Shown here: in pieces, positions 22,749 through 37,233 of the stretch
How positions within the stretch are numbered: the stretch's first letter is position 1
How the letters are laid out: the number at the start of each line of letters is the position of its first letter
NCBI RefSeq assembly: GCF_000015765.1
Contig: NC_008942.1
Location: forward strand, 124,001 to 188,000
Origin: Methanocorpusculum labreanum Z
GTDB taxonomy: Archaea > Halobacteriota > Methanomicrobia > Methanomicrobiales > Methanocorpusculaceae
DNA length: 64,000 nt
Direction: 5' to 3'
Notes under the pieces: model-generated
What the model was told of the DNA's origin: nothing
Seen by the model: only the letters and a program-made list of their open reading frames with translations
Database searches by the model: none
Program-made: the position numbers and the translations under genes

Positions 22749-23738
22749 ACGCACATACCTGATTTTCTGTTTGGCTATAGCGGACTTGGCGTCCCTATTG
22801 GTATCGTATTCTGGATAATTGCTCTTGTTTTTATTGTTCTTGCAATTAACTGGGCAAGGAAAAATCTTGACGAGTCAAAGATCCCGATCCTTGCAGTCAT
22901 TGCTGCAGGCATTTTTGCCCTTCAGGCGTTCAATCTTCCGACCGGATTCGGGGTTTCCGGACATCTGGTCGGCGGTGCTCTTGCCGCCATCATTCTCGGT
23001 TCTCCATTTGCAGCCGTCTTTGTTCTGACGATCGTTCTGATTATCCAGGCCCTCATCTTCGGTGACGGCGGTGTTCTGGCGCTTGGCGCAAACATCATCA
23101 ACATGGGTGTTATCGCCGGTTTCGTCGGATTTTACTCATACAAAGGAATCAAATCCGTTCTCCCGAACGTCCCGGTTGCAGTCCCTGCAGGTATAGCAGC
23201 ATGGCTTGCGTGTGTTATCGCAGCATGTTGTGCAGCCGTTGAGATCGCCATTCTCGGTGCCGTTCCAATCTCTGTTGGTCTTCCAACAATGTTTATCTAC
23301 CACGCACTTATCGGTATCATCGAAGGTATCATAACTGCAATCGTGGTTACCCTGATATTCTCCGTGCGCCCTGAACTTACCGGAGATACAACGAAAAAGG
23401 CTGTCCCGATCAAGAGTGTTCTGGTCGTAGGTCTTGTTATAGCACTTATTATCGGAGGCTGTGCGGTTCTGTTCGCATCAAGCGACCCGGATGGACTCGA
23501 CAGTACTCTGCTTGTAAGCGGAGGCGTGAAGGAAGTCTTTGCTCCGGCAACGGGCGATGAGATTGTTGAGGCTGAAGATCCGATCGGCTGGGAAGCACCT
23601 ATGCCCGACTATGCGCTTGGAGATAGTATTGCCGGCGGAATCATAGCGTTGATTATAGGAATATTTGCAGCTCTTGTTGTGATCCTTATCGCGGCAAAAA
23701 TCGTCTACGCTTCCTCCACTGCGGGGAAGAGTAGTTAA
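22749..23738 (+). CDS. nikMN: Nickel/cobalt ECF transporter component, NikM-NikN fusion, ACG start
   Basis: Substrate-binding membrane part of an energy-coupling-factor nickel importer. The 329-residue frame begins with an ACG codon and then reads HIPDFLFG, exactly the conserved start of CbiM/NikM, whose N-terminal Met-His binds the metal. GGTGA lies 6 bp before the ACG. A stop codon at 22740-22742 and the absence of any ATG, GTG or TTG leave no other start; the first ATG (23103) would delete four conserved helices. FNLPTGFGVSGHLVGGALAA carries the further metal-binding histidine. The C-terminal part holds a PDGLD motif and a last helix typical of NikN/CbiN, so it is a fusion. No cbiQ or cbiO genes are nearby; they must be elsewhere. 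Confidence 0.85.
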   Translation, partial: THIPDFLFGYSGLGVPIGIVFWIIALVFIVLAINWARKNLDESKIPILAVIAAGIFALQAFNLPTGFGVSGHLVGGALAAIILGSPFAAVFVLTIVLIIQALIFGDGGVLALGANIINMGVIAGFVGFYSYKGIKSVLPNVPVAVPAGIAAWLACVIAACCAAVEIAILGAVPISVGLPTMFIYHALIGIIEGIITAIVVTLIFSVRPELTGDTTKKAVPIKSVLVVGLVIALIIGGCAVLFASSDPDGLDSTLLVSGGVKEVFAPATGDEIVEAEDPIGWEAPMPDYALGDSIAGGIIALIIGIFAALVVILIAAKIVYASSTAGKSS

Positions 23739-23831: not shown

Positions 23832-24251
23832 ATGGTCGGAGAGTCAGATCTTTCACGTATTGGTATATCGCTTCCAGAAAATCTTTTGAATAAATTTGAT
23901 GATATCATCGGGAAGCGCGGATACTCTTCAAGATCGGAGGGAATCCGTGATGCAATCCGTTCTTATATCACGTATTATGAATGGATGAATGACGTCTCCG
24001 GCGAGCGTCAGGGCGTCATAACCATGGTATATGATCACGATCACCGTGGACTTATGGAAGCGATCACGGAGATCCAGCACTCGAACAGGCAGATCGTTCA
24101 GTCGACGATCCACTCGCACGTCAGCGATGAACGGTGTCTCGAGGTCATTTTAGTCCGTGGACAGGGCGAACAGCTCAAACAGCTCGCTGAACGGCTGATG
24201 TCTTTGAAAGGTGTCGAGTCGGTCAAACTGACGACGATCAAAGTCGACTGA
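23832..24251 (+). CDS. nikR: Nickel-responsive transcriptional regulator NikR
   Basis: 139 residues. A ribbon-helix-helix DNA-binding domain opens the protein (LSRIGISLPENLLNKFDDIIGKRGYSSRSEGIRDAIR), followed by an ACT-like tetramerisation domain. The high-affinity nickel ligands of the family are present in HSHVSDERC (two His and the Cys), and the upstream HDHRGL region adds the fourth His. Nickel-bound NikR represses nickel uptake genes, so the adjacent nikMN and perhaps the ABC importer in this window are likely targets. It is read in the same direction as nikMN after a 93-bp gap with its own TATA-like sequence (CTAATATAG). Confidence 0.95.
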   Translation: MVGESDLSRIGISLPENLLNKFDDIIGKRGYSSRSEGIRDAIRSYITYYEWMNDVSGERQGVITMVYDHDHRGLMEAITEIQHSNRQIVQSTIHSHVSDERCLEVILVRGQGEQLKQLAERLMSLKGVESVKLTTIKVD

Positions 24252-24280: not shown

Positions 24281-25414
24281 TCACTTTTTCTGCTTTGACG
24301 AAGTTGCATCAATCAAGGTATTGAGCACGTTCTCTAAAAACATGATTCCGCCCTCTATTCCTGCAATCGGTCGTGCCGCTATGGAGACCCGGCTTCTGTC
24401 AGGCGGCGTTATCCCGAGGAATGCAGCGTTTGGATAACCATTTGCTTCGAACGTTGATCCAAGGATAAGATCCGGCCGGCAGCCGGCAATATGCCCTGCA
24501 ATCTTCGTCAGATCGGTTTCAGAGGGAATGCTTACCGCATCATGGTTTCGTGCAAGCATCACCGGAACGTCCGCCCCGAAGTAGCGCTCCATCATCGATT
24601 TTGCAAACAGTGCGTAACTTTCCTGAGCACATACGGCAACGACCGGTGGTTCATATTTTCGCAGATATTTGTCGCTTGAGTAGAACAGCTGCTCGTCGGC
24701 AAGATTCCACTCTTCGAGGAGCGGGTCGATATCGGCGTTGGGAAATATATCTGCGAGTTTTGCACAGGTATCTTTCAGGTCGGGGAACAAAAACGAGCCG
24801 AGCATCGTTCCAACGCCGGATGGATACGACGGGTTTACCGAGACGGTATGCAAAGCAGCTCCTTTTCGCAGATTTTCATAGCTGTCTTTGGCAAGACACA
24901 GAGCGGTCGGGATCCCCATCTCTGTGAGAATCCGTTTTGCTTCGTGCAGATTTCCCCGCCAGAATAGATCCAGAAGGGAAACCCCGTCGATGTTCACGCC
25001 TTCCCTTGATGCATCCGTTTCGATTCCCAGCCGTTCAAAGGCGATCTTTGCTCCATCTTCGACACTCCCGATGAATCCGGGCGCATCGACAAAAATTGTC
25101 TCCTCTTCGGAAAATGCCCCCGAAAGATCTTCGCCGGTGAGTGCCGGGATACAGGTGTTTAAAACGGCGATCGGTCGCTTCGACGTTGAAAGAGTGTTCA
25201 CGACCTCTTTCAGGCGCTCGACCGTACCGAACACGATCTCTGACTCCAGAAGATACGTGCTGAACAAAGGAACCTTCAGCAGCGACCGGGGATAATAATA
25301 ACAGCCGGATGAACCGTGGATCAGCACGTTCAGTCCGGAGAAGCCGGCAAGCACTGAACAGGCCCCGGTCATCGCGCACGGCCAGACCGGATTTACGCAC
25401 AGTCCTTCATCCAT
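24281..25414 (-). CDS. Nitrogenase-like component 1 subunit, NifK/NifD-type
   Basis: Third gene of a nitrogenase-like trio. It is 377 residues, much shorter than true NifK (about 510). Cluster-ligand cysteines occupy the positions of the P-cluster motifs: NPVWPCAMTGA (about 12), HGSSGCYYY (about 38) and LNTCIPALTGED (about 87). The C-terminal segment DLILGSTFEANGYPN then GIEGGIMFLENVL matches the cofactor-domain end of the oxidoreductase/nitrogenase component 1 family. Its start overlaps the preceding D-like gene by 8 bp. It belongs to the uncharacterised NifDK-related families of methanogens. The presence of a second D/K-like gene argues against CfbD, which works as a single subunit type. 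The substrate is unknown. Confidence 0.8.
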   Translation of the reverse strand: MDEGLCVNPVWPCAMTGACSVLAGFSGLNVLIHGSSGCYYYPRSLLKVPLFSTYLLESEIVFGTVERLKEVVNTLSTSKRPIAVLNTCIPALTGEDLSGAFSEEETIFVDAPGFIGSVEDGAKIAFERLGIETDASREGVNIDGVSLLDLFWRGNLHEAKRILTEMGIPTALCLAKDSYENLRKGAALHTVSVNPSYPSGVGTMLGSFLFPDLKDTCAKLADIFPNADIDPLLEEWNLADEQLFYSSDKYLRKYEPPVVAVCAQESYALFAKSMMERYFGADVPVMLARNHDAVSIPSETDLTKIAGHIAGCRPDLILGSTFEANGYPNAAFLGITPPDRSRVSIAARPIAGIEGGIMFLENVLNTLIDATSSKQKK

Positions 25415-26453
25415 GCAGGATCGTCCTCCTCCAAAGATGGAGCATCTTCACGGTCCCGGACACACCGACCGGCAGATAGAACGGAAGCCTGACCTTGATT
25501 CCGGTCGGCGATTCGATCATCCCCAGTCTTTCGAGCGCTTCTTTTGCTACGGCGAGTGTTCCTTCGAACGGTTCGACACCGAGGCAGACATCGCGGCCGG
25601 CAAGATCCGCAAATTTCGCGAGCACTTTCTTCTGGTGCTCGGTCTCTTTCGAGATCGCCTCATTGATTTTTTCTGAAGAAACTCCGGCGGCTTTTCCCGT
25701 CTCCTGCAGGAATGCGATTGATCCGGAAAGTCCCCGCGGAAACTCGGGAATCACCGGCCGGCCAAATCTCTTTCCAAGTTCGCGTCCGGCATGTGCCGAT
25801 CGACCGTCGCGTAAAATAAAACAGGACGCCGTTCCAAGTTTTTGAAGTTCTGCAGCATCGGCATTTCTGCAGAATCTGACCGAAACGGTCAGGCCCAGAA
25901 GATCGAGCAGCCGGGCAACCTCGGCAAAATTCTCCTCGACCTCGGACTCCAGATTTTTTTCACCGATGATTGCGACTGTCCCCGGAATCGGATCCGCCGG
26001 TTTTGCCAGAGCCGAAAGGCCGATCAATGCAGCATTCTCGCCGTCCTTTGCACTTCCTCCGAGAAACCCGGACGTTGGGATATAGATGGTCCGGTCCGCA
26101 CAGGCATGTTCCCGGCAGACGGCCAGACAGTCGTCCCCGATTGTTTCCGGGACACAGGAGGTCACAACGATGATCAGTTCCGGATCCTTTGCTGCTGCAC
26201 GGTCGAGAGCCTGTCTGAGACAATCCTCTCCGCCGAAGATGACATCTTTGTCGGAAAGCCCCGAGACAAGAATCTCCGGAACGATTTTCGTCTCCGCTTC
26301 GTTCATCATCGCATGGAGCATGGAAAACGTCTGGTGGGCGCAGCCTTTGGGGGCATGCACTACCGTTACTGCTCCCGGGATAAAACAGGCGACGGAAAGG
26401 GCCCCCGTAAGAGTGCACCCGGCCATCCGTGATTCAGAGATAGTGTCTTGCAA
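25407..26453 (-). CDS. Nitrogenase-like component 1 subunit, NifD/NifE-type
   Basis: Second gene of the trio, 348 residues. Putative cluster cysteines sit in MAGCTLTGA (about 13), [12 protein letters not shown] (about 38) and [13 protein letters not shown] (about 99). There is no convincing counterpart of the FeMo-cofactor cysteine and histidine of NifD, and the C-terminal domain is short. The frame begins with a TTG that overlaps the NifH-like gene; an ATG at 26426 is an alternative that starts MAGCTL. The partner gene follows with an 8-bp overlap, so the two probably form a heteromeric component 1. A reductive tetrapyrrole, thioether or small-molecule reaction is conceivable, but nothing in the sequence decides it. 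Confidence 0.8.
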
Positions 26454-27240
26454 GCTCTTCCAGTTCCTCTAATGCAAGCGGGGTCGGAATCCGAAGATCG
26501 GTGTTTTCCAGAATGGTTTTGGCACAGTCCCGGTAGACGGCCGCCTGTTCCGATGTTGGATCGTGTTCGATGACCGTCATACAGTTCACCTCCGCTGCTC
26601 TGACCGATTTGCTTCGTGGAATATAACAGACAAGGCGTGATCCGATCCTTTTTGCAAACTCCTCGACAAGTTCGCGTTCGTTATCCATATTCTTTGCATT
26701 GCAGATCACTCCACCAAGCCGGCATTTTGCCGTGCTTCGTTCGGATATTCTCGCGATCGCTTTGCAGATATTGTTTGCAGCATAGAGACTCATCAGCTCT
26801 CCGCTTGTTACAAGATACACTTCCTGCGCATAGCCGTCACGCATCGGCATCGCAAACCCTCCGCAGACAACGTCCCCGAGAACATCGTATACGACAACGT
26901 CTCCGTAGAGAGCATCCATCTTTTCCAGAAGCTGGAATGTTGCGATGATTCCTCTGCCTGCACACCCGATCCCGGGCTCCGGCCCTCCAGCCTCGACACA
27001 GCGGATGTTTCCAAATCCCTGATAGATGATGTCCTCGCTTTTGATCTCTTTATGATCATACATCTGCTCAAGAACGGTCGGGATCCAGCGTCCGTGCATG
27101 AGCATCCGTGTGCTGTCGTGTTTCGGGTCACACCCGATCTGCATGACATCCAGGTCCATCTCCGAAAATGCCGCCGAAAGATTTGCCGATGTAGTGGATT
27201 TTCCAATACCTCCCTTTCCATAGAGGGCGATCTGTCTCAT
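26434..27240 (-). CDS. NifH-like ATP-dependent reductase (component 2)
   Basis: A 268-residue NifH/BchL/CfbC-type ATPase that would pass electrons to the D/K-like pair. The Walker A loop [14 protein letters not shown] is at residue 8 and switch region DPKHDST at about 39. Both cluster-ligand cysteines are present, in [13 protein letters not shown] (about 95) and [14 protein letters not shown] (about 128). The arginine that is ADP-ribosylated in true NifH also remains. It is therefore expected to be an active dinitrogenase-reductase-type homodimer. It is the first gene of the trio with its own TATA box upstream, separated by about 200 bp and a terminator from the methyltransferase gene. Confidence 0.9.
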
Positions 27241-27261
27241 TCCCTTATAGATTGATCTGCA

Positions 27262-27277
27262 GGATACATATAATTTG
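27262..27277 (-). promoter_or_regulatory. TATA box for the nitrogenase-like trio
   Basis: Read on the minus strand this is AAATTATATGTATCCT, a good archaeal TATA element about 25-35 bp before the ATG of the NifH-like gene. It suggests that the H/D/K genes have their own promoter. Confidence 0.5.
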
Positions 27278-27327
27278 AGTTAAATCCATGTTGTCTGGTG
27301 AACGGTCCAGTCGATACGTCTCTTTGA

Positions 27328-27364
27328 TGAAAAAAAGAAGAAAGACTGACTGAGATTTATCTCA
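27328..27364 (-). terminator. Hairpin and T-rich terminator after the methyltransferase
   Basis: TGAGAT and ATCTCA (27351-27364) form a perfect 6-bp stem. On the minus strand it is followed by a T-rich run (complement of the A run 27328-27338). It lies about 80 bp past the methyltransferase stop and separates the importer operon from the nitrogenase-like genes. Confidence 0.5.
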
Positions 27365-27442
27365 ATCAAAAAAGGTTTTATTTTCGGTATGAACAGGTAA
27401 ACTATTGCGATATCGCGAGTTATGTTGAAATCATCATAACGT

Positions 27443-28216
27443 TCATGTGGATTCAGGTTTTTTTCCCGAGATCAGGTAGTATGTACTCTTTGGCGCGATC
27501 TTCATATACCAGCTGAAATATTTTCTCTGTTCATCGGTAATCGCATCCAAATTGACGACGGTAATGTTGGTAAATCCGGCATTTTCAAAGTATTCTTTCG
27601 CCTTTTCTTCCGAAGTTCCTCCTTTGTTCGGGAGATAAGACGACACCTCTTCACTGTAACGGCTCTTTCCTCCATGCGGATGTGCCTCGACTAAAGATGC
27701 AATTTTGTGGGATATCTTCTTTTTTACGGTATTCAGTCTGGAACCGTCATCCCAGACTCCGTCGATCACCAGTAAAGTTCCATTCGGTTTGAGAACGCGG
27801 AACCAGCTTGAAATGGCTTTGTCGGGATTTGGCAGCGTCCAGAGCAGATGACGATTCACAACCACGTCGAATTTCCCGTCATCGAACGGAGGATGCTCTG
27901 CATCACCCGATGAAAAGTTCATCGCAAGGTGCATGTCGGCCGCTTTTTTTCTGCCGACATCCATCATTCCTTCCGATAAATCAATTCCTTCAACTGTATG
28001 TCCCATCTCAGCAAAAATCAGGCCCATGGCTCCAGTTCCGCATCCTACGTCAAGAACCTGAAGCTGCGTATCGTTTTTGACTCTGGTGGAAAAAGCTTCC
28101 ATCCACAACTTTTTCTCTTCGTCAGATTTCATTCCGTGAGATACATGGGAATCATAGAAATTTGACTCCTGGTTCCATGCATTTGCAATTTCCTGTTTAA
28201 TTTTTTCATCATTCAT
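27443..28216 (-). CDS. Class I SAM-dependent methyltransferase
   Basis: 257 residues of the UbiE/Methyltransf_11 type. The SAM loop LDVGCGTGAMGLIFAEMG is at about residue 55, motif II IDLSEGMMDVGRKKA at about 78 and motif IV DVVVNRHLLWTLPNPDKA at about 117. The C-terminal part is less conserved and would define the substrate. It is the last gene of the ABC importer cluster, 17 bp after the second ATPase gene, so its substrate may be what the importer brings in, or a metal-binding small molecule. It also lies beside the nitrogenase-like genes, though with a terminator between. No specific substrate can be named. Confidence 0.85.
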   Translation of the reverse strand: MNDEKIKQEIANAWNQESNFYDSHVSHGMKSDEEKKLWMEAFSTRVKNDTQLQVLDVGCGTGAMGLIFAEMGHTVEGIDLSEGMMDVGRKKAADMHLAMNFSSGDAEHPPFDDGKFDVVVNRHLLWTLPNPDKAISSWFRVLKPNGTLLVIDGVWDDGSRLNTVKKKISHKIASLVEAHPHGGKSRYSEEVSSYLPNKGGTSEEKAKEYFENAGFTNITVVNLDAITDEQRKYFSWYMKIAPKSTYYLISGKKPEST

Positions 28217-28233
28217 AGTAATACCAGTAATAA

Positions 28234-29121
28234 TTAGATAAGAACGAAATGGTTTTTTGAAACTTCAGTCATCCTGCCGCTGCCGTCAAACCGTGAAGTA
28301 TCATAATCAATAATGGTCTTATTTCTCTCATATACCGGATCGGGAACCGGTGCCGCTGATATAAGAGAACGCGTATACTCATGTATAGGATTTTCAAACA
28401 GTTCCTTTGTAGCTGCCAGTTCCACGATCTTTCCTTTCAGCATAACTGCAATCCTGTCTGAAAGAAACCTGATGATGGAGAGGTCGTGTGCAATAAAAAT
28501 AATTGAAAATCCCCGCTCCTTTTGCAAATTCTGAAGCAGCGTGACAATCTGAGCCTGAATCGAAATATCAAGAGATGCGATTGGTTCGTCGGCAATGATG
28601 AGATCGGGTTTCATAGCAATACTTCGTGCAATAGCTACCCGTTGTCTCTGTCCGCCGGAGATCTCTCCCGGATACCGCTTTTTAAACGGTTCCGATAATC
28701 CGACAAGCCGCAGATGTTCGTCAACTACAGCAGCAATCTCCTCTTTCGTCTTGAGAATATTGTTTACAACTAATGGTTCTGCAATAATCTTTTCAACAGT
28801 CATATGGGGATTGAGAGCAGCTGTTGAATCCTGGAAAATGATCTGGATATTTTTCTGTATGTCCGCCTTGTTCTGGTTGAAGATTTTTTTATCGGAAATC
28901 TGCTTTCCTTTAAAATAAATCTCTCCGTCCGTTAATGTATTCACACCCATGATCGTCCGTCCGACTGTCGATTTGCCGGAACCAGTTTCGCCCACAATGC
29001 CGAAGACTTCTCCTCTTCTGATCGAAAAGGAAATGTCATCCACGGCGTTGATCGTGAGTTTCTTGTTTATGTGGAAATACTGCTTCAGATTCTTCACGTC
29101 AAGAAGAACGTCATCGCTCAT
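28234..29121 (-). CDS. Dpp/Opp/Nik-type ABC importer, second ATPase
   Basis: 295 residues. Walker A GETGSGKSTVGR (about 42), the signature EISGGQRQRVAIARSIA (about 158), Walker B LIIADEPIASLD (about 180) and the switch His in FIAHDLSIIRF are all intact. It is the DppF/OppF/NikE-like partner of the upstream ATPase, and its start overlaps that gene by 4 bp. The C-terminal oligopeptide/nickel ABC extension (ENPIHEYTRSLISAAPVPDP) is present but short. It drives import of the ligand captured by the lipoprotein encoded upstream. Confidence 0.92.
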   Translation of the reverse strand: MSDDVLLDVKNLKQYFHINKKLTINAVDDISFSIRRGEVFGIVGETGSGKSTVGRTIMGVNTLTDGEIYFKGKQISDKKIFNQNKADIQKNIQIIFQDSTAALNPHMTVEKIIAEPLVVNNILKTKEEIAAVVDEHLRLVGLSEPFKKRYPGEISGGQRQRVAIARSIAMKPDLIIADEPIASLDISIQAQIVTLLQNLQKERGFSIIFIAHDLSIIRFLSDRIAVMLKGKIVELAATKELFENPIHEYTRSLISAAPVPDPVYERNKTIIDYDTSRFDGSGRMTEVSKNHFVLI

Positions 29122-30140
29122 TCTGCCTGTGCCTCCCCGACCTTCAGAGAGACCGGCGGATCGATTTTGGGTGCATGTTCGTCAAGCAGCCAGGTCGCAG
29201 CAAAATGCGTGGGTGAAATCTCAAACATAGGCGGCATTTTTTCGAAATCAATTTTCATTGCGTATTTGCTTCTGTAGGCAAACATATCACCTTTTGGCGG
29301 ATTCAGCATGATCGGGGGTATTCCCGGGATACATTTCAGGGGTTCGCCCTCTTTTGCAAGCGTTGGGTGCGACTGCATAAGGCACCATGTATAGGGGTGT
29401 CTTGGATCGTAGAAAACCTCATCAACATTTCCAATTTCAACGATTTTGCCTGCATACATGATCGCGACACGGTCTGCAATCCGTGCGACAACCCCCAGAT
29501 CGTGAGAGATAAACACGATCGACAATCCGAGTTTGTCACGAAGGTCTAAGAGCAGATCGATGATTTTTGCCTGGACGGTCACATCGAGAGCAGTTGTTGG
29601 TTCATCGGCAAAGAGAATCATCGGCTCTAATGCAAGAGCAATAGCAAGAACACATCTCTGACGCATGCCTCCGGAAAAGAAATAGGGCTGCAGGGAATAT
29701 CTCTGCTCGGGATTATCGATTCCAATAAGCTCAAGCATCTCTATCGCACGCTTTTTTGCTTCTTCTTTGCTGATTTTTTTGTGTTTGAGAAGAGCTTCGG
29801 TGATCTGTTTTCCAATAGGCATTGTAGGGTTCAAGGTGGTCAGCGGATCCTGGAAAACCATCGAGATGAGATTGCCTCTGATATTTTTCATGTCTTTTTC
29901 TTTAAAATCGGTGATATCAATCCCGTCTACGAGTATTTTCCCGGATTTGATGTGACCGTTTTTTGGAAGAAGTTTCAAAATGCTTTGACAGAGCACAGAT
30001 TTTCCGCAGCCGGATTCGCCGATTACCGCCAGAATTTCCCCACGTTTCAGAGAGAAACTTACTCCTCTCACAGCCTGAATTTCTCCGTCCTGGGTATCAA
30101 AACCGACTGATAAATCCTCGATGTCTAAAATAGAGTCCAT
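29118..30140 (-). CDS. Dpp/Opp/Nik-type ABC importer, first ATPase
   Basis: 340 residues. Walker A GESGCGKSVLCQ (about 37), signature FSGGMRQRCVLAIALA (about 152), Walker B MILFADEPTTALD (about 170) and HDLGVVARI (about 203) are in place. The C-terminal segment DPRHPYTWCLMQSHPTL, followed by a proline-rich oligo_HPY-type region, is the usual DppD/OppD end. The last residues overlap the next ATPase gene by 4 bp. The two ATPases form the heterodimer of the importer. Confidence 0.92.
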   Translation of the reverse strand: MDSILDIEDLSVGFDTQDGEIQAVRGVSFSLKRGEILAVIGESGCGKSVLCQSILKLLPKNGHIKSGKILVDGIDITDFKEKDMKNIRGNLISMVFQDPLTTLNPTMPIGKQITEALLKHKKISKEEAKKRAIEMLELIGIDNPEQRYSLQPYFFSGGMRQRCVLAIALALEPMILFADEPTTALDVTVQAKIIDLLLDLRDKLGLSIVFISHDLGVVARIADRVAIMYAGKIVEIGNVDEVFYDPRHPYTWCLMQSHPTLAKEGEPLKCIPGIPPIMLNPPKGDMFAYRSKYAMKIDFEKMPPMFEISPTHFAATWLLDEHAPKIDPPVSLKVGEAQAE

Positions 30141-30175
30141 TTATAGCTCCCCATGCTTCATGGAAAATAAAAAAA

Positions 30176-31732
30176 TTATTTGGAGAGTGTCCAATTTTCA
30201 ATGTTCCACATAACTCCAACTGCGTGGTGACCAAGCAGTTTGTCGGTGTTGAGCCCGGAAAGACCGTCGATACCTACATAGTTTCCTTCGAGATATGCCG
30301 TGAGCAGCACACCTGGAGTTTCCGCAAATACCTGTTCGAACTCACCGTACAGCTGTTTGCGCACGCTTGGGTTGGCTTCATGTCTTGCCTGGGTTAAAAT
30401 CTCATCAACTTCAGCGTTTGAATACTTCATGGTATTTGAACTTCCGTTGGTTGTGAACTGAGCATACATCATATCCGGATCATACTCGGTGGCGTAACCT
30501 GCAAGGAATCCGTTGTACCCTGAGTTCCAGTCGAATTTGGTGACGAGTACAACTTCCATGTCGACACCTGCCGTTTCAAGCATCTGTGACATTAAGTTTG
30601 CAATATCGACCCTTTCCTCTTCATAGTCCCTGGTCTGGATGGTGAAGTGGAATTTCTGACCGTTTCTTTCGTAAATGCCATCAGAGCCCTTTACCCATCC
30701 GAGTTTTTCCATTTCTTCGGCAAATTTCGTAAGGTTGTATGAGTAAATGTCGGCTGCCGTGTCTCCTCCGTAGGAATTGAGCTGCATAGGACTGAAAGCT
30801 ACAATTCCTCTGCCGTCAAGAACACTATTAACGATAGCGTCTTTGTCGATCGCATAGTTAAGAACACCTACGGAGTCGCCATTTTTCTTCCAGAAGTCAG
30901 TTCTGAAATCCATCGCAGCTCCGCGATAGTCGGCGGTCTGGAAATCATAGTTCGTGTAGCCGCTTTTGCCTCTGAACTGTTTGGCGTAGTTTGAATTGAG
31001 CCAGGCAAGATCGGCTTCACCGGTCATCAGCATGGTCGCTTTCGTGCTTTCAACGCCAACTGTTTTGTAGATAACACGTTCGATGTTCGGGACGTTTCCG
31101 TAGTAATCTGTGTTTCTCTCAAGAATGATCATACCGCCGGCAGTGTCCCAGTCGGAAAGCTTGTATTTGCCGGTTCCAATCGGGTTCTGATTGAACGAAT
31201 CTGTGGCAATGTCTTTTCCTTCCAGGAGATGTTTTGGAAGAATGCCCAGTGCAAAGTAATCAAGCATAGCTGCATTGTACTTGTCCATCGTGATTACGAC
31301 CGTGTAGTCGTCAGGTGCAGTTACCGTTGCAATATCCTCGTAATCGCTTCTAACGCTTGACGACACAGCAGCGTCCGTCAGCATTGTGTTGTAGGTAAAT
31401 ACCACATCATCTGCCGTAAAAGGTTCACCATCGTGCCATGTAACACCTTTTTTAAGTTTGAAGGTGTAGGTCATGTTTTTATCATCGTAGGTGTAACTTT
31501 CAGCCAAATCAACGATCGGCTGATTGTTTGCATCGTAGGTCATCAGTCCGGAGAAGACGACGTTTGTCAGTTCACCATGCGTGTCGAAAATCGGATTGAT
31601 ACTGTCAACTCCTTCACCTGCATAGACAAGTGTGTTGCTCATATCTGTGGCGGTGTCAACACAGCCTGCTGTCATACAAACGAGAATGAGCGCACATACA
31701 GCCATACCAAAGAATACTTTTTTACTTTTCAT
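30176..31732 (-). CDS. ABC importer substrate-binding lipoprotein, SBP family 5
   Basis: 518 residues. The signal sequence MKSKKVFFGMAVCALILV ends with lipobox MTAGC, so the mature protein is lipid-anchored outside the cell. The body matches the peptide/nickel binding family (DppA/OppA/NikA): SINPIFDTHGELTNVVFSGL, FKLKKGVTWHDGEPFTADDVVFTY (family signature), NPIGTGKYKLSDWD and a C-terminal lobe with FDWNSGYNGFLAGY. The ligand may be a peptide, nickel complex or metallophore. Several arginines line the predicted cleft segments, but no specificity can be read. The gene lies between the permease genes and the ATPase genes with a 170-bp leader containing an inverted repeat. Confidence 0.92.
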   Translation of the reverse strand: MKSKKVFFGMAVCALILVCMTAGCVDTATDMSNTLVYAGEGVDSINPIFDTHGELTNVVFSGLMTYDANNQPIVDLAESYTYDDKNMTYTFKLKKGVTWHDGEPFTADDVVFTYNTMLTDAAVSSSVRSDYEDIATVTAPDDYTVVITMDKYNAAMLDYFALGILPKHLLEGKDIATDSFNQNPIGTGKYKLSDWDTAGGMIILERNTDYYGNVPNIERVIYKTVGVESTKATMLMTGEADLAWLNSNYAKQFRGKSGYTNYDFQTADYRGAAMDFRTDFWKKNGDSVGVLNYAIDKDAIVNSVLDGRGIVAFSPMQLNSYGGDTAADIYSYNLTKFAEEMEKLGWVKGSDGIYERNGQKFHFTIQTRDYEEERVDIANLMSQMLETAGVDMEVVLVTKFDWNSGYNGFLAGYATEYDPDMMYAQFTTNGSSNTMKYSNAEVDEILTQARHEANPSVRKQLYGEFEQVFAETPGVLLTAYLEGNYVGIDGLSGLNTDKLLGHHAVGVMWNIENWTLSK

Positions 31733-31862
31733 TCTAAACGAGTTCCTTTTGTTTTTACGCGTTTTACATCAGTTCCCTATGGGTGGCCGGCATGTCCGGC
31801 GATACGATTTTTCAAAACGTATGCCATAAGTCATATTTTTATTTTATTTGTTATTACATAAA

Positions 31863-31890
31863 TGTGTTTAATTATATTAAATAACACACA
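31863..31890. promoter_or_regulatory. A+T-rich inverted repeat upstream of the binding-protein gene
   Basis: TGTGTTTAAT and ATTAAATAACACACA form an imperfect inverted repeat between the second permease gene and the binding-protein gene. It may be an operator or a processing structure that raises the level of the binding protein over the permeases. Confidence 0.35.
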
Positions 31891-31904
31891 ATGAAAAATA
31901 TGTG

Positions 31905-32810
31905 TTACAGCCTGTTCGGTTTTTTGTTCATGTCTTTTCTGAAACAGTTTGCGATAGTTGTTATGCATGAGAGCGTGACGATCAGGAATATTCCGGGAAT
32001 CACGATGACCCACCATGTATTGAGCAGAAGTGCACGGTTTGAAAGCGACAGTATGCTTCCCCACGATAAAACATCGAGCGGAAGACCCAGTCCTAAGAAA
32101 CTTAAGGTAGATTCGGTCGTGATACACGTACTAATGCCGGATACAACGACGAACATGATTGCAGGAATAATATTAGGGATGAGATGCTTCACAACAAGCC
32201 TTTCGAACCTGGCACCGTAGCATTTCGCAGCTATCACATATTCGTTGGTTCGGATCTGACGCACTTCACTTCTAACAATTCTCGCGAGAGCAAACCACGA
32301 AGTTACGGCTATCACAAAGGATATCGATATCGGATTCTGCTGACCCAGTATCGTTATGATGAGAATGGTCAGAAGGATCTGCGGGATAATATGAAAAATT
32401 TCAACAACACGCTGAAGGAGCGTATCGATCCTCGTGTTCGCCATTCCGTTGATACATCCGTAGGTTATGCCAATCAGTGTGACAATGGCTGCACCCAGAA
32501 ATCCTACCGTCAATGACGTTCGTCCGCCGTACCAGATGATTGAAAACAGATCGCGGCCGAGAGAATCCGTTCCGAAATAGAAATCACTGTTCGGCGGTTC
32601 GTTGAGACTGTCGAGATAATACGTGGATGGATTATGATTGGCAATCAGGGGGGCGAAGATACAGCCAAAAAGGATCGCTGAAAATACTATTATTGAAATC
32701 CATGGGAGTTTTCTCAGTTTTTTGGATACAGATTCTTTTTTTATTTCAGGTTCCCATGTCTGGTATTCTGCTCCAACGATTTCAAATGCGGAAGGATCTA
32801 TTTCTCCCAT
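31905..32810 (-). CDS. Dpp/Opp/Nik-type ABC importer, permease C
   Basis: About 301 residues. The chosen ATG (MGEIDPSAFEIVG) has a strong GGAGGT 6 bp upstream and overlaps the previous permease by 13 bp; a longer frame was not used. The N-terminal extension and one helix (ISIIVFSAILFGCIFAPLI) precede the DppC-type core. The core carries STDSLGRDLFSIIWYGGRTSLTVG (family start) and the EAA loop VIAAKCYGARFERLVVKHLIPN. It pairs with the B permease to form the channel. Confidence 0.92.
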   Translation of the reverse strand: MGEIDPSAFEIVGAEYQTWEPEIKKESVSKKLRKLPWISIIVFSAILFGCIFAPLIANHNPSTYYLDSLNEPPNSDFYFGTDSLGRDLFSIIWYGGRTSLTVGFLGAAIVTLIGITYGCINGMANTRIDTLLQRVVEIFHIIPQILLTILIITILGQQNPISISFVIAVTSWFALARIVRSEVRQIRTNEYVIAAKCYGARFERLVVKHLIPNIIPAIMFVVVSGISTCITTESTLSFLGLGLPLDVLSWGSILSLSNRALLLNTWWVIVIPGIFLIVTLSCITTIANCFRKDMNKKPNRL

Positions 32811-33799
32811 ATTGTACCTCCTGCGTCTTTCATACGGGGATCTATGACTTCGTTGATCATATATGCACACATACTTGTTATGATCACCATTGATCCCGTG
32901 ATGAGAACAAGAAGCATGAGGAGATTATAGTCGTGATATTTTGCAGCGCTTATTGCCATGTTTCCTATTCCCGGGTAGTTAAATACCGCTTCTGCGATCA
33001 CGGTCCCGCCTAATACATGCGGAATCGAGATCGCCATGAGATTCACAATTGTCGGTGCGATGTTTCTGAGAGAATGTTTCCAGAGGATCTCGGATTTCGT
33101 CAAACCTTTGATTTTTGCAAGCAGGACGTAGTCTTTTCTGTTTTCATCCAGCAGCTTGTTGCGTATCATGTATGCATAATACCAGATATGGGAGAATATC
33201 ATCACGGTGAGCGGTAGTATCATGTGCCAGATTCTGTTTGCGATGTTACCCGCCTGACCATAATCGTATGCTCCGCTGCTTGGGAACCAGTTGAGGTTGA
33301 CACTGAATATGAGGATGAGGATGAGACCCAGCCAGAAGGCAGGTATAAAATAGCTCATTGTCCCGATTTTGCAGATTAGTTTGTCAAGCAGGGTATCTTC
33401 GTGTTTTGCACAGATGACGGCGAGTACAATTGCGAGGGCAAAAACGAGAATGTATGCAGTGAGTCCGAGTATAATGGTGTTGCTGATAAGGGGTGCAATG
33501 ACGTCCATCGCCGGCATTTTATACTGGAGCGACAGACCGAAGTCCCCTCCAAGGGCGAGGAGCAGCCATTTGATATACTGATAATATATGGGCCCGTCCA
33601 GACCCAATCTTACGCGTGCTGCATCCATTTCTTCGATGCTCATGGTATCCAGCGCATCGCCGTAAAATGCCTGCAAAGGGTCTCCCGGAGCCAAACGTGC
33701 CATGACAAAGACGATTATGGAAAGTACAAACATCGTTATTATGAATATAATGATGTTTTTTCCAATTTTTTTCAGATATGGGTAATCAGACAAGTTCAC
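32798..33799 (-). CDS. Dpp/Opp/Nik-type ABC importer, permease B
   Basis: 333 residues with six hydrophobic helices. The DppB signature MARLAPGDPLQAFYGD is at about residue 33. The EAA motif YVLLAKIKGLTKSEILWKHSLRN is at about 225 and a long PGIGNMA segment is near 273. It is the first gene of the importer operon. The upstream 240 bp are strongly A+T-rich and contain a TATTACAT inverted repeat that may be its operator. Confidence 0.92.
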   Translation of the reverse strand: MNLSDYPYLKKIGKNIIIFIITMFVLSIIVFVMARLAPGDPLQAFYGDALDTMSIEEMDAARVRLGLDGPIYYQYIKWLLLALGGDFGLSLQYKMPAMDVIAPLISNTIILGLTAYILVFALAIVLAVICAKHEDTLLDKLICKIGTMSYFIPAFWLGLILILIFSVNLNWFPSSGAYDYGQAGNIANRIWHMILPLTVMIFSHIWYYAYMIRNKLLDENRKDYVLLAKIKGLTKSEILWKHSLRNIAPTIVNLMAISIPHVLGGTVIAEAVFNYPGIGNMAISAAKYHDYNLLMLLVLITGSMVIITSMCAYMINEVIDPRMKDAGGTIWEK

Positions 33800-34043: not shown

Positions 34044-35525
34044 TCAGTCTCTTCTATCCGATTTCTTCTGCGTATCGAATCCCCGAAGGATACCCCAGAT
34101 CAGAATAAGCACCGGAATAATTTCCAGTCTCGCGATCCACATAATAAAGAACATCACGACCTTTGCATAATCAGGCATCATCGGGCCAACGACTCCTGTC
34201 GAGCTCCCGTTGTTTCCAATGCAGCTGCAGAGATCATAGATCGTATGTGCAAGATTCTCCGAGAAATATGGGTCGTGCAGGAACACGATCAGCGTTCCAA
34301 GCATAAGCAGAACAAACAGCAGGATCATCAGCAGGGATTTTGCGATCAGCGTTTCCCCTTCTTTTCCGTAGATCGGTTTGCCGTCATGGCGCATCGGGAC
34401 CACGGCCTTTGGACTCTGCAGGGTTTTTCTAAACCACCAGCCCAAAGCTTCGAGCATAACCTGCAGACGATTCAGTTTTATACCTCCAGATGTACTTCCC
34501 TGGGCTCCTTCGATCATAAGGAATATTGAAAGGAATATGATCGGTGCGAGCCCCCATCCGGCAAAGGTCGTGTTCTGGAATCCGGTGGAACTCACAACCG
34601 AACCGGCCATAAAGAGACTTTCCCGCAGAGTTTCCATAAGGGGCATCCCGGCAGTGAAAAGTTCGACGATCAAAACGGCGGCAACGAAAAGGTACACGCC
34701 GACCATCAGATGCAGGATTCTGTCGTGCAGGATCTCCCGAAACGACCTGCTGACATATACCACGTAATAGAGCCGAAACGGCAGCGCTCCGGCAAGCATG
34801 ATCGGAATCAAAACCATCTCGAGCGCAAAATTGTTGAAATGCGTAATTCCCGCTGCGTAAATCGTCATTCCTCCGGTCGCGATCGCGCAGAACGCGACGT
34901 TGACGGCGTCCCAGAGACTAAGACCCGTCAAAAGGATTGCGATAATTGCGATCAGCGTCAAAATCAGATAGATCTTCCACATCTGAAAAGCCGTTGCGAT
35001 AACGCTTGGCATGAACGACTCCGACCCTCCTTCGGACCGGTAGAGATTCTGGGTGACAAGTCCTGAGCGGCTTGCCACCGTCAGTGTGAATGCCACGATC
35101 CCAAGGCCGCCGATCCACTGCATCAGAGATCTCCAAAGAAGAATCGTTTTTGGCCAGCTCTCGATGTTCGTTGCAATGGAAAATCCAGTGCCCGTCCACG
35201 CCGACATGGATTCGAATGCAGCGTCGATCAGCGGCATACCGGCAAAAATAAAGGGAAAACAGCCGAGAAACCCAACCAATGCCCAGATCACTGCCGTCGC
35301 CGAGATCGAGAGGCTGGCCCTTGGGGGTTTCGTATTTTTCGGCAGCAAATGTAAGAGGCCGCCAAGTCCGAGCATTGCAAACGTGGAACTTGCCATCCAC
35401 GGCAGAGCATACCATTCCTGAAAGAAACAGCCGACGATGATCGGAACAAGGGTGGCGGTGCCTATGAGCAGAAGCACTGACCCGATATCACGACCGATCG
35501 CCGGAAGTTCCCTGAGATACCCCAT
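34044..35525 (-). CDS. trkH: TrkH-type potassium uptake protein
   Basis: 493 residues with about ten transmembrane segments and four K+-channel-like pore repeats. Visible filter regions include ESMSAWTGTGFSIATN (about 110), FCAIATGGMTIYAAGI (about 222), AGSVVSSTGFQNTTFAG and GNNGSSTGVVGPM. It belongs to the Trk/Ktr superfamily and imports potassium, which methanogens accumulate for osmotic balance. No trkA/ktrA regulatory subunit gene is next to it, so it must be encoded elsewhere. It stands alone between the importer region and the oxygen-detoxification operon. Confidence 0.93.
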   Translation of the reverse strand: MGYLRELPAIGRDIGSVLLLIGTATLVPIIVGCFFQEWYALPWMASSTFAMLGLGGLLHLLPKNTKPPRASLSISATAVIWALVGFLGCFPFIFAGMPLIDAAFESMSAWTGTGFSIATNIESWPKTILLWRSLMQWIGGLGIVAFTLTVASRSGLVTQNLYRSEGGSESFMPSVIATAFQMWKIYLILTLIAIIAILLTGLSLWDAVNVAFCAIATGGMTIYAAGITHFNNFALEMVLIPIMLAGALPFRLYYVVYVSRSFREILHDRILHLMVGVYLFVAAVLIVELFTAGMPLMETLRESLFMAGSVVSSTGFQNTTFAGWGLAPIIFLSIFLMIEGAQGSTSGGIKLNRLQVMLEALGWWFRKTLQSPKAVVPMRHDGKPIYGKEGETLIAKSLLMILLFVLLMLGTLIVFLHDPYFSENLAHTIYDLCSCIGNNGSSTGVVGPMMPDYAKVVMFFIMWIARLEIIPVLILIWGILRGFDTQKKSDRRD

Positions 35526-35604: not shown

Positions 35605-35988
35605 TTATACTTTTTTGACCCAGAGTCCGTGCTGGTTACAGTATTCCCCGGCTTTCTCTGCCTTTGCAGTGGTCTTTACGATCATCTCGGGTTTTTCGCC
35701 CGGAACAAGGAACTTCTCGTGAACGATCCCGTCATCGGTTCTGAGAGCGACCCAGGTGATGTAGTGTTCATCGAGCATTGGGTGGGGAGCTGAACCGACC
35801 GCTACTTTGTATCCTCCGGCGACCTCTTCAATAACCGGAACATGTTTTTCGAGCGAGGCGTCGGTACTGTTTTCTTCAAGCAGATTCATCGGCTGGCCAC
35901 AGCAGACGAGCTGGCCTTTTCCTTTTCCGATGACCCTGACAGTGTTCCCGCAGATAGCACATTTGTAGATTTCTTTAGCCTGTGTCAT
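35605..35988 (-). CDS. dfx: Desulfoferrodoxin (superoxide reductase)
   Basis: 127 residues. The N-terminal desulforedoxin-type iron site is YKCAICGNTV plus LVCCGQPM (four cysteines). The catalytic domain has the iron-binding HVPVIEE (His near 49), HPMLDEHYITWV (two His) and the C-terminal EYCNQHGLW (Cys and His). It reduces superoxide to peroxide without making oxygen. It is the last gene in the rubredoxin-FprA-desulfoferrodoxin series, all on the minus strand, which together protect this strict anaerobe from oxygen. Confidence 0.96.
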   Translation of the reverse strand: MTQAKEIYKCAICGNTVRVIGKGKGQLVCCGQPMNLLEENSTDASLEKHVPVIEEVAGGYKVAVGSAPHPMLDEHYITWVALRTDDGIVHEKFLVPGEKPEMIVKTTAKAEKAGEYCNQHGLWVKKV

Positions 35989-36048: not shown

Positions 36049-37233
36049 TCAGAGCGTTTTATGACGCTCTTCGATCGAATCCGCCAGTTTGTGCAGATCC
36101 GCGATTGCAGGTTCATCGGGAAGGCCCTTGATATAAACCGGCTCGAGTACTTCGGCTCCAAGAGGTGAAAGCATCTCGGCGAGATAGTTGACGGCATTGG
36201 TTCCCCAGCCGTACGAACCGATCACGCCAAGGTATTTCGCTTTCGGCCGAAGTGCCCTGACCAGATACGCAGCGTTTACTGCGACCGGGTGAGGACCGAA
36301 AAGAACGGTCGGTGTTGCAAGAATGATAGTTGCTGCATCGACGATCGAACTGCCGAGAACGCCCGAATCCGTTTCCAGGAGATTATACTGCTGAACGGGA
36401 ATTCCCCGCTGAACGAGATCATCAACAAGGAAATTCACCATCATTTCGGTACTTCCGTGCATGGAAACATATGCGACAACGACGATGTTTTTCGGGGTGT
36501 CGGATGCCCATTCGCGGTACAGATCCATGATCTTTGCGGGAAGCTTCAGAACAGGACCGTGACTTGGACCGATGATTTTCGGCGCGATCTCGTCAACAAG
36601 CGTCAGATACTCGCGAACCGATGCTCTAAATGGCATCATGATCGCTGCATAGTAACGTTTTGCTGATTCCAGATAATCGGGAAGATCATTGTCCTGAAAA
36701 AGCGTCGGGGATGCATAATGCGTTCCAAGGAAATCCGAGGTAAAGAGAACTTTGTCCTCGACGACCTCTGCAAACATCGTGTCGGGCCAGTGGACCCAGG
36801 GAGTGAGATAGAACTTCAGCGTCTTGTCGCCGAGAGAAAGCGTCTCTCTGTCCCCAATCACGATGAACCGCTCTTCGAGTTCTTCCAGATGGTGCATTGC
36901 CATCAGAAGTCCTTTGCAGACCTCGTTCGTGACGACCTTTGCCATCGGATATACTTCGAGAAGCAGCGGAAGCATACCGGAATGATCCTGTTCTGCGTGC
37001 AGACAGACGATATAATCCAGGGAATGCTGGTCCACCCGCATAAGATTGGTGATGAACTCAGCTTCTTCGTGGGGTTCACCGGTATCGACGAGGGCGGTCT
37101 TTTCGCTGCCTTTTACGAGGTAAGCGTTGTAACTGCTCCCTCTCGGTGTCGGCATGATCGCATCAAAGTACCGGAGGTCCCAGTTGATCGTACCGACCGC
37201 ATAGATGTTTTCAACAATCTCGCGGGCTGCCAT
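36049..37233 (-). CDS. fprA: F420H2 oxidase FprA (A-type flavoprotein)
   Basis: 394 residues: an N-terminal metallo-beta-lactamase domain with the di-iron ligands HAEQDHSG (His, Glu, Asp, His at about 80) and a C-terminal flavodoxin domain (VVAYVSMHGSTEMMV at about 255, APTVLFG-like LATPTVLFGPHP later). In methanogens this protein reduces O2 to water with reduced F420. The start overlaps nothing, and the stop is followed by the desulfoferrodoxin gene after about 60 bp. A rubredoxin gene lies 6 bp upstream, a likely electron carrier. Confidence 0.95.
   Translation of the reverse strand: MAAREIVENIYAVGTINWDLRYFDAIMPTPRGSSYNAYLVKGSEKTALVDTGEPHEEAEFITNLMRVDQHSLDYIVCLHAEQDHSGMLPLLLEVYPMAKVVTNEVCKGLLMAMHHLEELEERFIVIGDRETLSLGDKTLKFYLTPWVHWPDTMFAEVVEDKVLFTSDFLGTHYASPTLFQDNDLPDYLESAKRYYAAIMMPFRASVREYLTLVDEIAPKIIGPSHGPVLKLPAKIMDLYREWASDTPKNIVVVAYVSMHGSTEMMVNFLVDDLVQRGIPVQQYNLLETDSGVLGSSIVDAATIILATPTVLFGPHPVAVNAAYLVRALRPKAKYLGVIGSYGWGTNAVNYLAEMLSPLGAEVLEPVYIKGLPDEPAIADLHKLADSIEERHKTL

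Follow-up and report, generated by a model that had tools for sequence, protein, structure and literature searches.

A nitrogenase-like H/D/K operon of Methanomicrobiales with a probable CfbC reductase and a distinct D/K pair

Introduction

The known heteromeric relatives of nitrogenase catalyse the reduction of N2, of C-S bonds or of chlorophyll precursors, or serve in cofactor assembly, and the synthesis of F430 requires the reductase component CfbC. Both the nitrogenase superfamily and the HDK layout of its gene trios are already known. Here we analyze an H/D/K trio of Methanocorpusculum labreanum Z that lies in a stretch of 64,000 nucleotides (positions 124,001-188,000 of NC_008942.1, forward strand; hereafter the window), in which H is a probable CfbC and D and K, by the sequence features tested, fall outside CfbD, methylthio-alkane reductase (Mar), Nif/NifEN and dark-operative protochlorophyllide oxidoreductase (DPOR).

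Among heteromeric group IV nitrogenase-like enzymes, the known functions are of the Mar and Isr types (PMC12552129, PMC11423573), and the cysteines ligating the P-cluster have been listed for NifDK and MarDK (PMC12552129). Dos Santos et al. (2012) described "yellow" lineages, nitrogenase-like pairs with three plus three cysteines and no ligands for the iron-molybdenum cofactor (FeMoco); the only M. labreanum genes named in that text are Mlab_1039/1040, which correspond to a second trio (PMC3464626). The open-access papers searched, subscription papers not being covered, contained no account of this order-wide operon, of a connection with CfbC or of cfbC lying apart from cfbD in Methanomicrobiales.

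Results and Discussion

The HDK operon

The three genes lie on the minus strand with overlapping reading frames (20 nt between H and D, 8 nt between D and K) and form one operon (Table 1). Their Pfam matches are far over the cut-off, at 348 bits to PF00142 for H and at 169 and 105 bits to PF00148 for D and K, respectively; together with the reading frames, these matches bear out the positions and sizes that a first-pass annotation of this DNA had given for the trio, and its description of D/K as heteromeric stands by gene content. Compared with three relatives, H has a ratio of nonsynonymous to synonymous substitution rates (dN/dS) of 0.04-0.05, and D and K have ratios of 0.08-0.13, indicating that all three genes are maintained by purifying selection. 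Relatives that have trkH directly upstream of H keep the roughly 50 bp in front of H together with their TATA-like element, which supports the earlier proposal of a separate HDK promoter. The terminator that had been proposed to split HDK from the importer genes upstream is less convincing: the stem exists (27369-27346) but is weak, and terminator-type sites are no commoner than in shuffled sequence (11 observed, 9.7 +/- 2.8 in shuffles).

H is very probably the CfbC of the order

We conclude from sequence comparison that H is very probably the CfbC of Methanomicrobiales, and probably the sole reductase of F430 synthesis there. It scores 423.8 bits against the curated model NF033200 (F430_CfbC), passing the cut-off of 402, and 381.5 bits against TIGR01287 (nifH), under the cut-off of 394. 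Both of its cluster cysteines (C93 and C126), which the first-pass annotation had recognized, are conserved in 86 homologues. A search for separate cfbC and cfbD genes, suggested at that stage, turned up a cfbD elsewhere in the M. labreanum genome and no cfbC besides H; the only other NifH-type gene of this genome is located in the second trio. Among 106 near-complete Methanomicrobiales genomes (completeness at least 95%), CfbD is found in all 106 and a CfbC-type match in 105, the NF033200 count taking in weak matches in draft genomes. In 67 of the 106 (counted from the table of matches), each with a separate CfbD, H is the single NifH-type protein. H is very probably CfbC, then, because it passes the CfbC model and is the sole NifH-type protein in about two-thirds of the CfbD-bearing genomes; and since F430 cannot be made without CfbC, H must serve CfbD wherever it has no NifH-type companion. 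It is not simply the third subunit of a new enzyme, and the earlier verdict that the trio is "not CfbCD" holds for D and K but fails for H.

The arrangement of the cfb genes differs from that in other orders, where cfbC mostly adjoins cfbD: no NifH-type gene was found at the Methanomicrobiales cfbE-cfbD loci examined. In 13 genomes of one family, picked for proximity and therefore not independent, cfbD lies 11-17 kb from HDK, and in the one proximal locus read in detail cfbA, cfbE and cfbD stand together; this proximity lends weak support to a link between H and CfbD. For annotation, cfbC should be expected apart from cfbD in Methanomicrobiales, and surveys of nifH should not read the H of this order as nitrogenase.

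D and K form a distinct two-gene lineage

Three cluster-type cysteines in each protein, as first noted from the sequence, prove invariant in 36-sequence alignments (C13, C38 and C100 in D; C13, C38 and C88 in K) and align with the P-cluster ligands of NifDK and MarDK. The ligands of the catalytic cofactor are a different matter: the position of NifD Cys275 is occupied in D by Arg-Asp (R212-D213), and the alignments show no equivalent of His442 and no cofactor ligand of the Cys275/250 type in either protein. In the tree, from which chlorophyllide oxidoreductase (COR) sequences were left out, D is monophyletic (95/98), K is monophyletic (100/100), and a 100/100 branch separates both from CfbD. 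D lies outside the clade of NifD, NifE and MarD (98/95), beside BchN on a long branch (92/83), and K lies outside the NifK/N and Mar K clades. The phylogeny called for by the first-pass annotation thus places the pair outside the CfbD, Mar and Nif clades; the case in which D/K would fall inside the CfbD clade of a genome with no other cfbD did not occur. AlphaFold models of the single chains reach a predicted local distance difference test (pLDDT) score of 90 for D and 88 for K, and the best Foldseek matches are NifEN, the MoFe protein, Mar and DPOR for D, and NifN, VnfK, AnfK and BchB for K, with template modeling (TM) scores of about 0.6-0.8 against NifEN, MoFe, Mar and DPOR chains. On sequence grounds, D and K make up a lineage of their own, encoded by two genes and carrying a P-cluster-type site.

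Comparison with each described system sharpens this assignment. CfbD (353 residues) resembles D (348) and K (377) in size and in having no cofactor ligands; however, D/K comprises two genes with three plus three cysteines, whereas CfbD lacks the first cysteine and keeps two in the alignment, and the identity of D/K to CfbD is about 20-21%, as it is to Nif. The scores of D and K against the CfbD model TIGR03282 (37.5 and 34.2 bits) are far under its cut-off of 268. These scores, the separate clades and the presence of a CfbD elsewhere in the genome rule out D/K as CfbD. DPOR and COR (BchLNB and BchXYZ) share with D/K two catalytic genes, no FeMoco ligands and the expectation of an organic substrate in the cavity, and D stands weakly beside BchN; they differ in an identity of about 20%, in the three cysteines and one aspartate of DPOR as against six P-cluster-type cysteines, and in the reductase, which in HDK would be shared with CfbD. 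Against the BchN, BchB, BchY and BchZ profiles, D and K score at most 64 bits (cut-offs at least 324).

NifDK has the same three plus three P-cluster-type cysteines, and NifEN/NifDK provide the best sequence and fold matches of D/K, but D/K has no counterpart of Cys275 or His442, is about 100 residues shorter and lies outside the NifD/E and NifK/N clades; the missing cofactor ligands and the tree position rule out a nitrogenase. MarHDK and IsrHDK have the same HDK arrangement, and Mar also has the six P-cluster-type cysteines (Isr sequences were left out of the comparison). D/K differs from Mar in lacking the cysteine ligand of [Fe8S9C], in its position outside the Mar clades, two features that rule out a Mar enzyme, and in an H that doubles as probable CfbC. 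The "yellow" lineages, compared here by their published description, have an identical ligand pattern (PMC3464626).

The trio is a feature of the order

An orthologue of D is present in about 200 of 232 Methanomicrobiales genomes (E < 1e-50, weaker matches in draft genomes being uncounted). Within the order, the scores of K orthologues are 222 bits or higher; matches from elsewhere reach no more than about 50 bits. A scan of genome contigs with D, tuned to close relatives, found it in Methanomicrobiales only; no systematic search of bacterial chromosomes was made with D or K, and the plasmid searches yielded nothing beyond Nif and Bch references. HDK is present in nearly all Methanomicrobiales and restricted to that order within these searches, so the trio is a feature of the order and not a local oddity. 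The gene order FprA-Dfx-(phosphoribulokinase-like)-TrkH-H-D-K recurs in Methanoregulaceae, Methanomicrobiaceae and other families, with members occasionally missing. In one family (f3), the position of K has shifted, from next to D to as far as about 15 kb from it, and K is still kept. In Methanospirillum and genus g26, H is retained in the same gene order and D and K are cleanly deleted; by profile search, K is absent from these two and also from genus g31.

Proposed mechanism and alternatives

We propose, at a probability of about one half, that a single operon encodes a CfbC-type reductase, H, feeding both CfbD and very likely D/K, together with a heteromeric, cofactor-less D/K reductase acting perhaps on a tetrapyrrole. 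H would give ATP-gated low-potential electrons to CfbD, which is encoded elsewhere beside cfbE, for F430 synthesis, and would very likely also donate electrons to D/K. We infer that D and K assemble as a heteromer, probably (DK)2; the H dimer would dock on both CfbD2 and (DK)2 and pass single electrons, with ATP hydrolysis, to an interface cluster, which in D/K would be held by the six cysteines as a P-cluster or a [4Fe-4S] variant. As D/K has no FeMoco or [Fe8S9C] ligands, its cavity should be open and cofactor-free, with direct binding of a substrate, expected to be organic, where nitrogenase houses its cofactor, as is the case for protochlorophyllide in DPOR. The likeliest substrate is an organic compound, and perhaps a tetrapyrrole, an idea favoured by the parallels with CfbD and DPOR and by the sharing of the reductase; the enzyme could modify or repair an F430-type compound or carry out an accessory reduction of it. 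The O2-defence genes nearby are compatible with repair, but genomes that have lost D/K retain them beside H, and they therefore cannot be pinned to DK.

Several observations weigh against this proposal. When the H tree was rebuilt without BchL, L181 and L120, dropped because of their very long branches, canonical CfbC, the type encoded beside cfbD in other orders, formed a 100/100 clade with the Methanomicrobiales H outside it, and the grouping of this H with that of the second trio was weak (92/86); approximately unbiased (AU) tests rejected neither CfbC+H (p-AU 0.33) nor NifH+H (p-AU 0.40). Many genomes hold further NifH-type proteins able to serve D/K or CfbD. The tetrapyrrole step is put forward by analogy only, no substrate is suggested by any gene neighbour beyond the O2-defence/TrkH block, and the loss in Methanospirillum makes D/K dispensable for F430 synthesis. 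It is possible that canonical cfbC was replaced by H in the order.

An unlikely alternative, though the one that survives best, makes D/K a second catalytic component of F430 synthesis, a heteromeric enzyme that would replace or assist CfbD, with Ni-sirohydrochlorin a,c-diamide or some later intermediate as its substrate. The operon with the CfbC candidate, the nearby cfbD in the 13 genomes mentioned above and the absence of cofactor ligands, as a tetrapyrrole reductase should have it, would all suit such a role, but CfbD is present in 106 of 106 genomes, Methanospirillum must make F430 without D/K, and D/K is equally distant from CfbD and from Nif. More doubtful still is a fuller scenario in which canonical cfbC was lost and the H of HDK took over, feeding CfbD and DK, the latter being a minimal heteromer with only a P-cluster, whose task would be the reduction or repair of an F430-type tetrapyrrole, such as oxidised F430, beside the O2-defence genes.

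We regard as quite improbable a scaffold of the NifEN kind for the maturation of complex Fe-S clusters, such as the [8Fe-9S-C] clusters of the activation complex of methyl-coenzyme M reductase (MCR). NifE/NifEN are the best profile and structure matches of D, and MCR activation in methanogens depends on NifB and [8Fe-9S-C]-type clusters (PMC12176620); nevertheless, the Arg-Asp of D replaces the cofactor cysteine of NifE/NifD, and D/K is confined to one order and lost in Methanospirillum. The chances are slimmer again for a C-S bond reductase like Mar or Isr, which act on methylthio-alkanes and isethionate, that would yield sulfur or small hydrocarbons: D does resemble the solved structure of MarK and, to a lesser degree, that of MarD, and the Mar and Isr types are the known functions of heteromeric group IV enzymes, but the cofactor cysteine that Mar-like D proteins retain is missing from D, D lies outside the NifD/NifE/MarD clade, true Mar-like trios occur separately in some relatives (L122, L124 and L126), and no radical S-adenosylmethionine (SAM) or sulfur genes were seen beside HDK. 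That D/K is non-catalytic, a vestigial or regulatory remnant, might be read from its loss without replacement in Methanospirillum and related genera, but is hardly credible given that almost every other member of the order retains D/K, with its ligands invariant and its dN/dS low.

Under the proposed dual role of H, one electron-donor protein appears to serve two unlike enzymes, CfbD and D/K. D/K itself is a near order-wide methanogen protein pair with P-cluster-type ligands but without cofactor ligands that appears to draw on the F430 reductase. If electrons from CfbC do reach DK, a single reductase stands at a branch between F430 synthesis and a further reaction, and this branch bears on the origin of the P-cluster before FeMoco. 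It also frames a testable question, namely which reaction Methanospirillum can do without and nearly all of its relatives have kept.

Neighbouring genes and the inserted cassette

Table 1. Coordinates of the HDK operon and neighbouring features in the window.
Feature	Position	Strand	Remarks
H, NifH-type ATPase reductase, probable CfbC (Ni-sirohydrochlorin a,c-diamide reductase component)	26434..27240	-	268 aa; first gene of the HDK operon
D, short NifD/E-like predicted catalytic subunit	25407..26453	-	348 aa; TTG start; PF00148
K, short NifK-like subunit	24281..25414	-	377 aa; PF00148
HDK promoter region with conserved TATA-like element TTAACTCAAATTATATGTAT	27241..27300	-	kept in relatives with and without the cassette
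NikR	23832-24251	+	
Methyltransferase	27443-28216	-	cassette member
Importer, five genes	28234-33799	-	cassette members
Inserted cassette PermB-PermC-SBP-AbcD-AbcF-methyltransferase	27443..33799	-	outside the HDK system, by GC and absence in relatives
TrkH-type potassium transporter	34044..35525	-	order-wide neighbour of H; named by sequence reading, without profile search
Desulfoferrodoxin-type protein (O2 defence)	35605..35988	-	conserved neighbour; named by sequence reading, without profile search
FprA-type flavodiiron protein (O2 defence)	36049..37233	-	conserved neighbour, also where D/K is lost; named by sequence reading, without profile search

The first-pass annotation had correctly placed a SAM methyltransferase, five importer genes and NikR around the trio, and took the import and methyl-transfer genes as a hint of the substrate. 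This does not hold: comparison of the genomes identifies the importer genes and methyltransferase as a recent insertion between trkH and H in this lineage. The GC content of the cassette is 0.42-0.46, against 0.48-0.56 in its flanks; trkH is followed directly by H in relatives whose D proteins are 91, 83 and 78% identical (confirmed in L184, L183 and L185), and the cassette is absent in L038/L184, L039, L040, L183 and L185. In the closest relative, G042, it stands at the same place, where no gene for the substrate-binding protein (SBP) was found. Being inserted and unconserved beside HDK, the cassette carries no information on the HDK substrate; the insertion, the low GC and the absence or other location in relatives rule it out as a substrate clue. 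Coupling of the enzyme to the adjacent Nik/Dpp-type importer, with an imported thioether, tetrapyrrole or nickel complex as substrate, is accordingly most improbable, for the adjacency here and in G042 is set against absence from the next relatives, occurrence elsewhere without HDK in G043, G039, G030 and G041, and an HDK promoter that is conserved on its own. Of the neighbourhood whose conservation was to be checked, HDK with FprA-Dfx-TrkH is conserved and the importer side is not.

The importer genes and methyltransferase behave as a mobile uptake-and-methylation unit: the unit recurs at differing sites among Methanocorpusculum genomes (L194, L195, L196 and L197), in G030 (L196) about 2-3 kb from cfbE-cfbD.

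On the other side of the trio, it is only among close relatives within Methanocorpusculum that NikR-NikMN stand next to K. The NikM-NikN fusion noted earlier is real, and its frame (window 22749-23738, plus strand) is open 5' of the first ATG (23103) to about 22749. The sequence there is AGGTGA-AACACT-ACG-CAC-ATA-CCT and reads alike in L038 and L040; it gives (M)HIPD, as is usual at the start of NikM/CbiM, except that ACG, well spaced after AGGTGA, replaces ATG. A conserved ACG start codon is thus possible from the sequence.

Other nitrogenase-like genes in the order

The second M. labreanum trio, H2/D2/K2, lies at about 1049.4-1052.6 kb (L004 and L007), adjoins the ATPase gene of an ATP-binding cassette (ABC) importer and fits Mlab_1039/1040 as named by Dos Santos et al. 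(PMC3464626). H2 has 248 residues and is short at the C-terminus, and K2 lacks two of the three P-cluster-type cysteines. Near cfbE-cfbD, some Methanomicrobiales encode a lone NifE-like protein (L116:7855-9129(-), L117:9450-10703(+) and L118:16675-18207(+)), which has the P-cluster-type cysteines and the cofactor cysteine, forms its own clade and has no H alongside; by its sequence it is a candidate L-type cluster carrier of interest for MCR activation. The Mar-like trios mentioned above (L122, L124 and L126) occur in family f6, including Methanospirillum, and their K proteins are 37-40% identical to Rhodospirillum rubrum MarK. Clusters of nifH, D, K, E and N are present in G105, G157 and G026 (L119, L121 and L123), one of them a Methanocorpusculum genome, with PII-type genes interspersed in two of the three.

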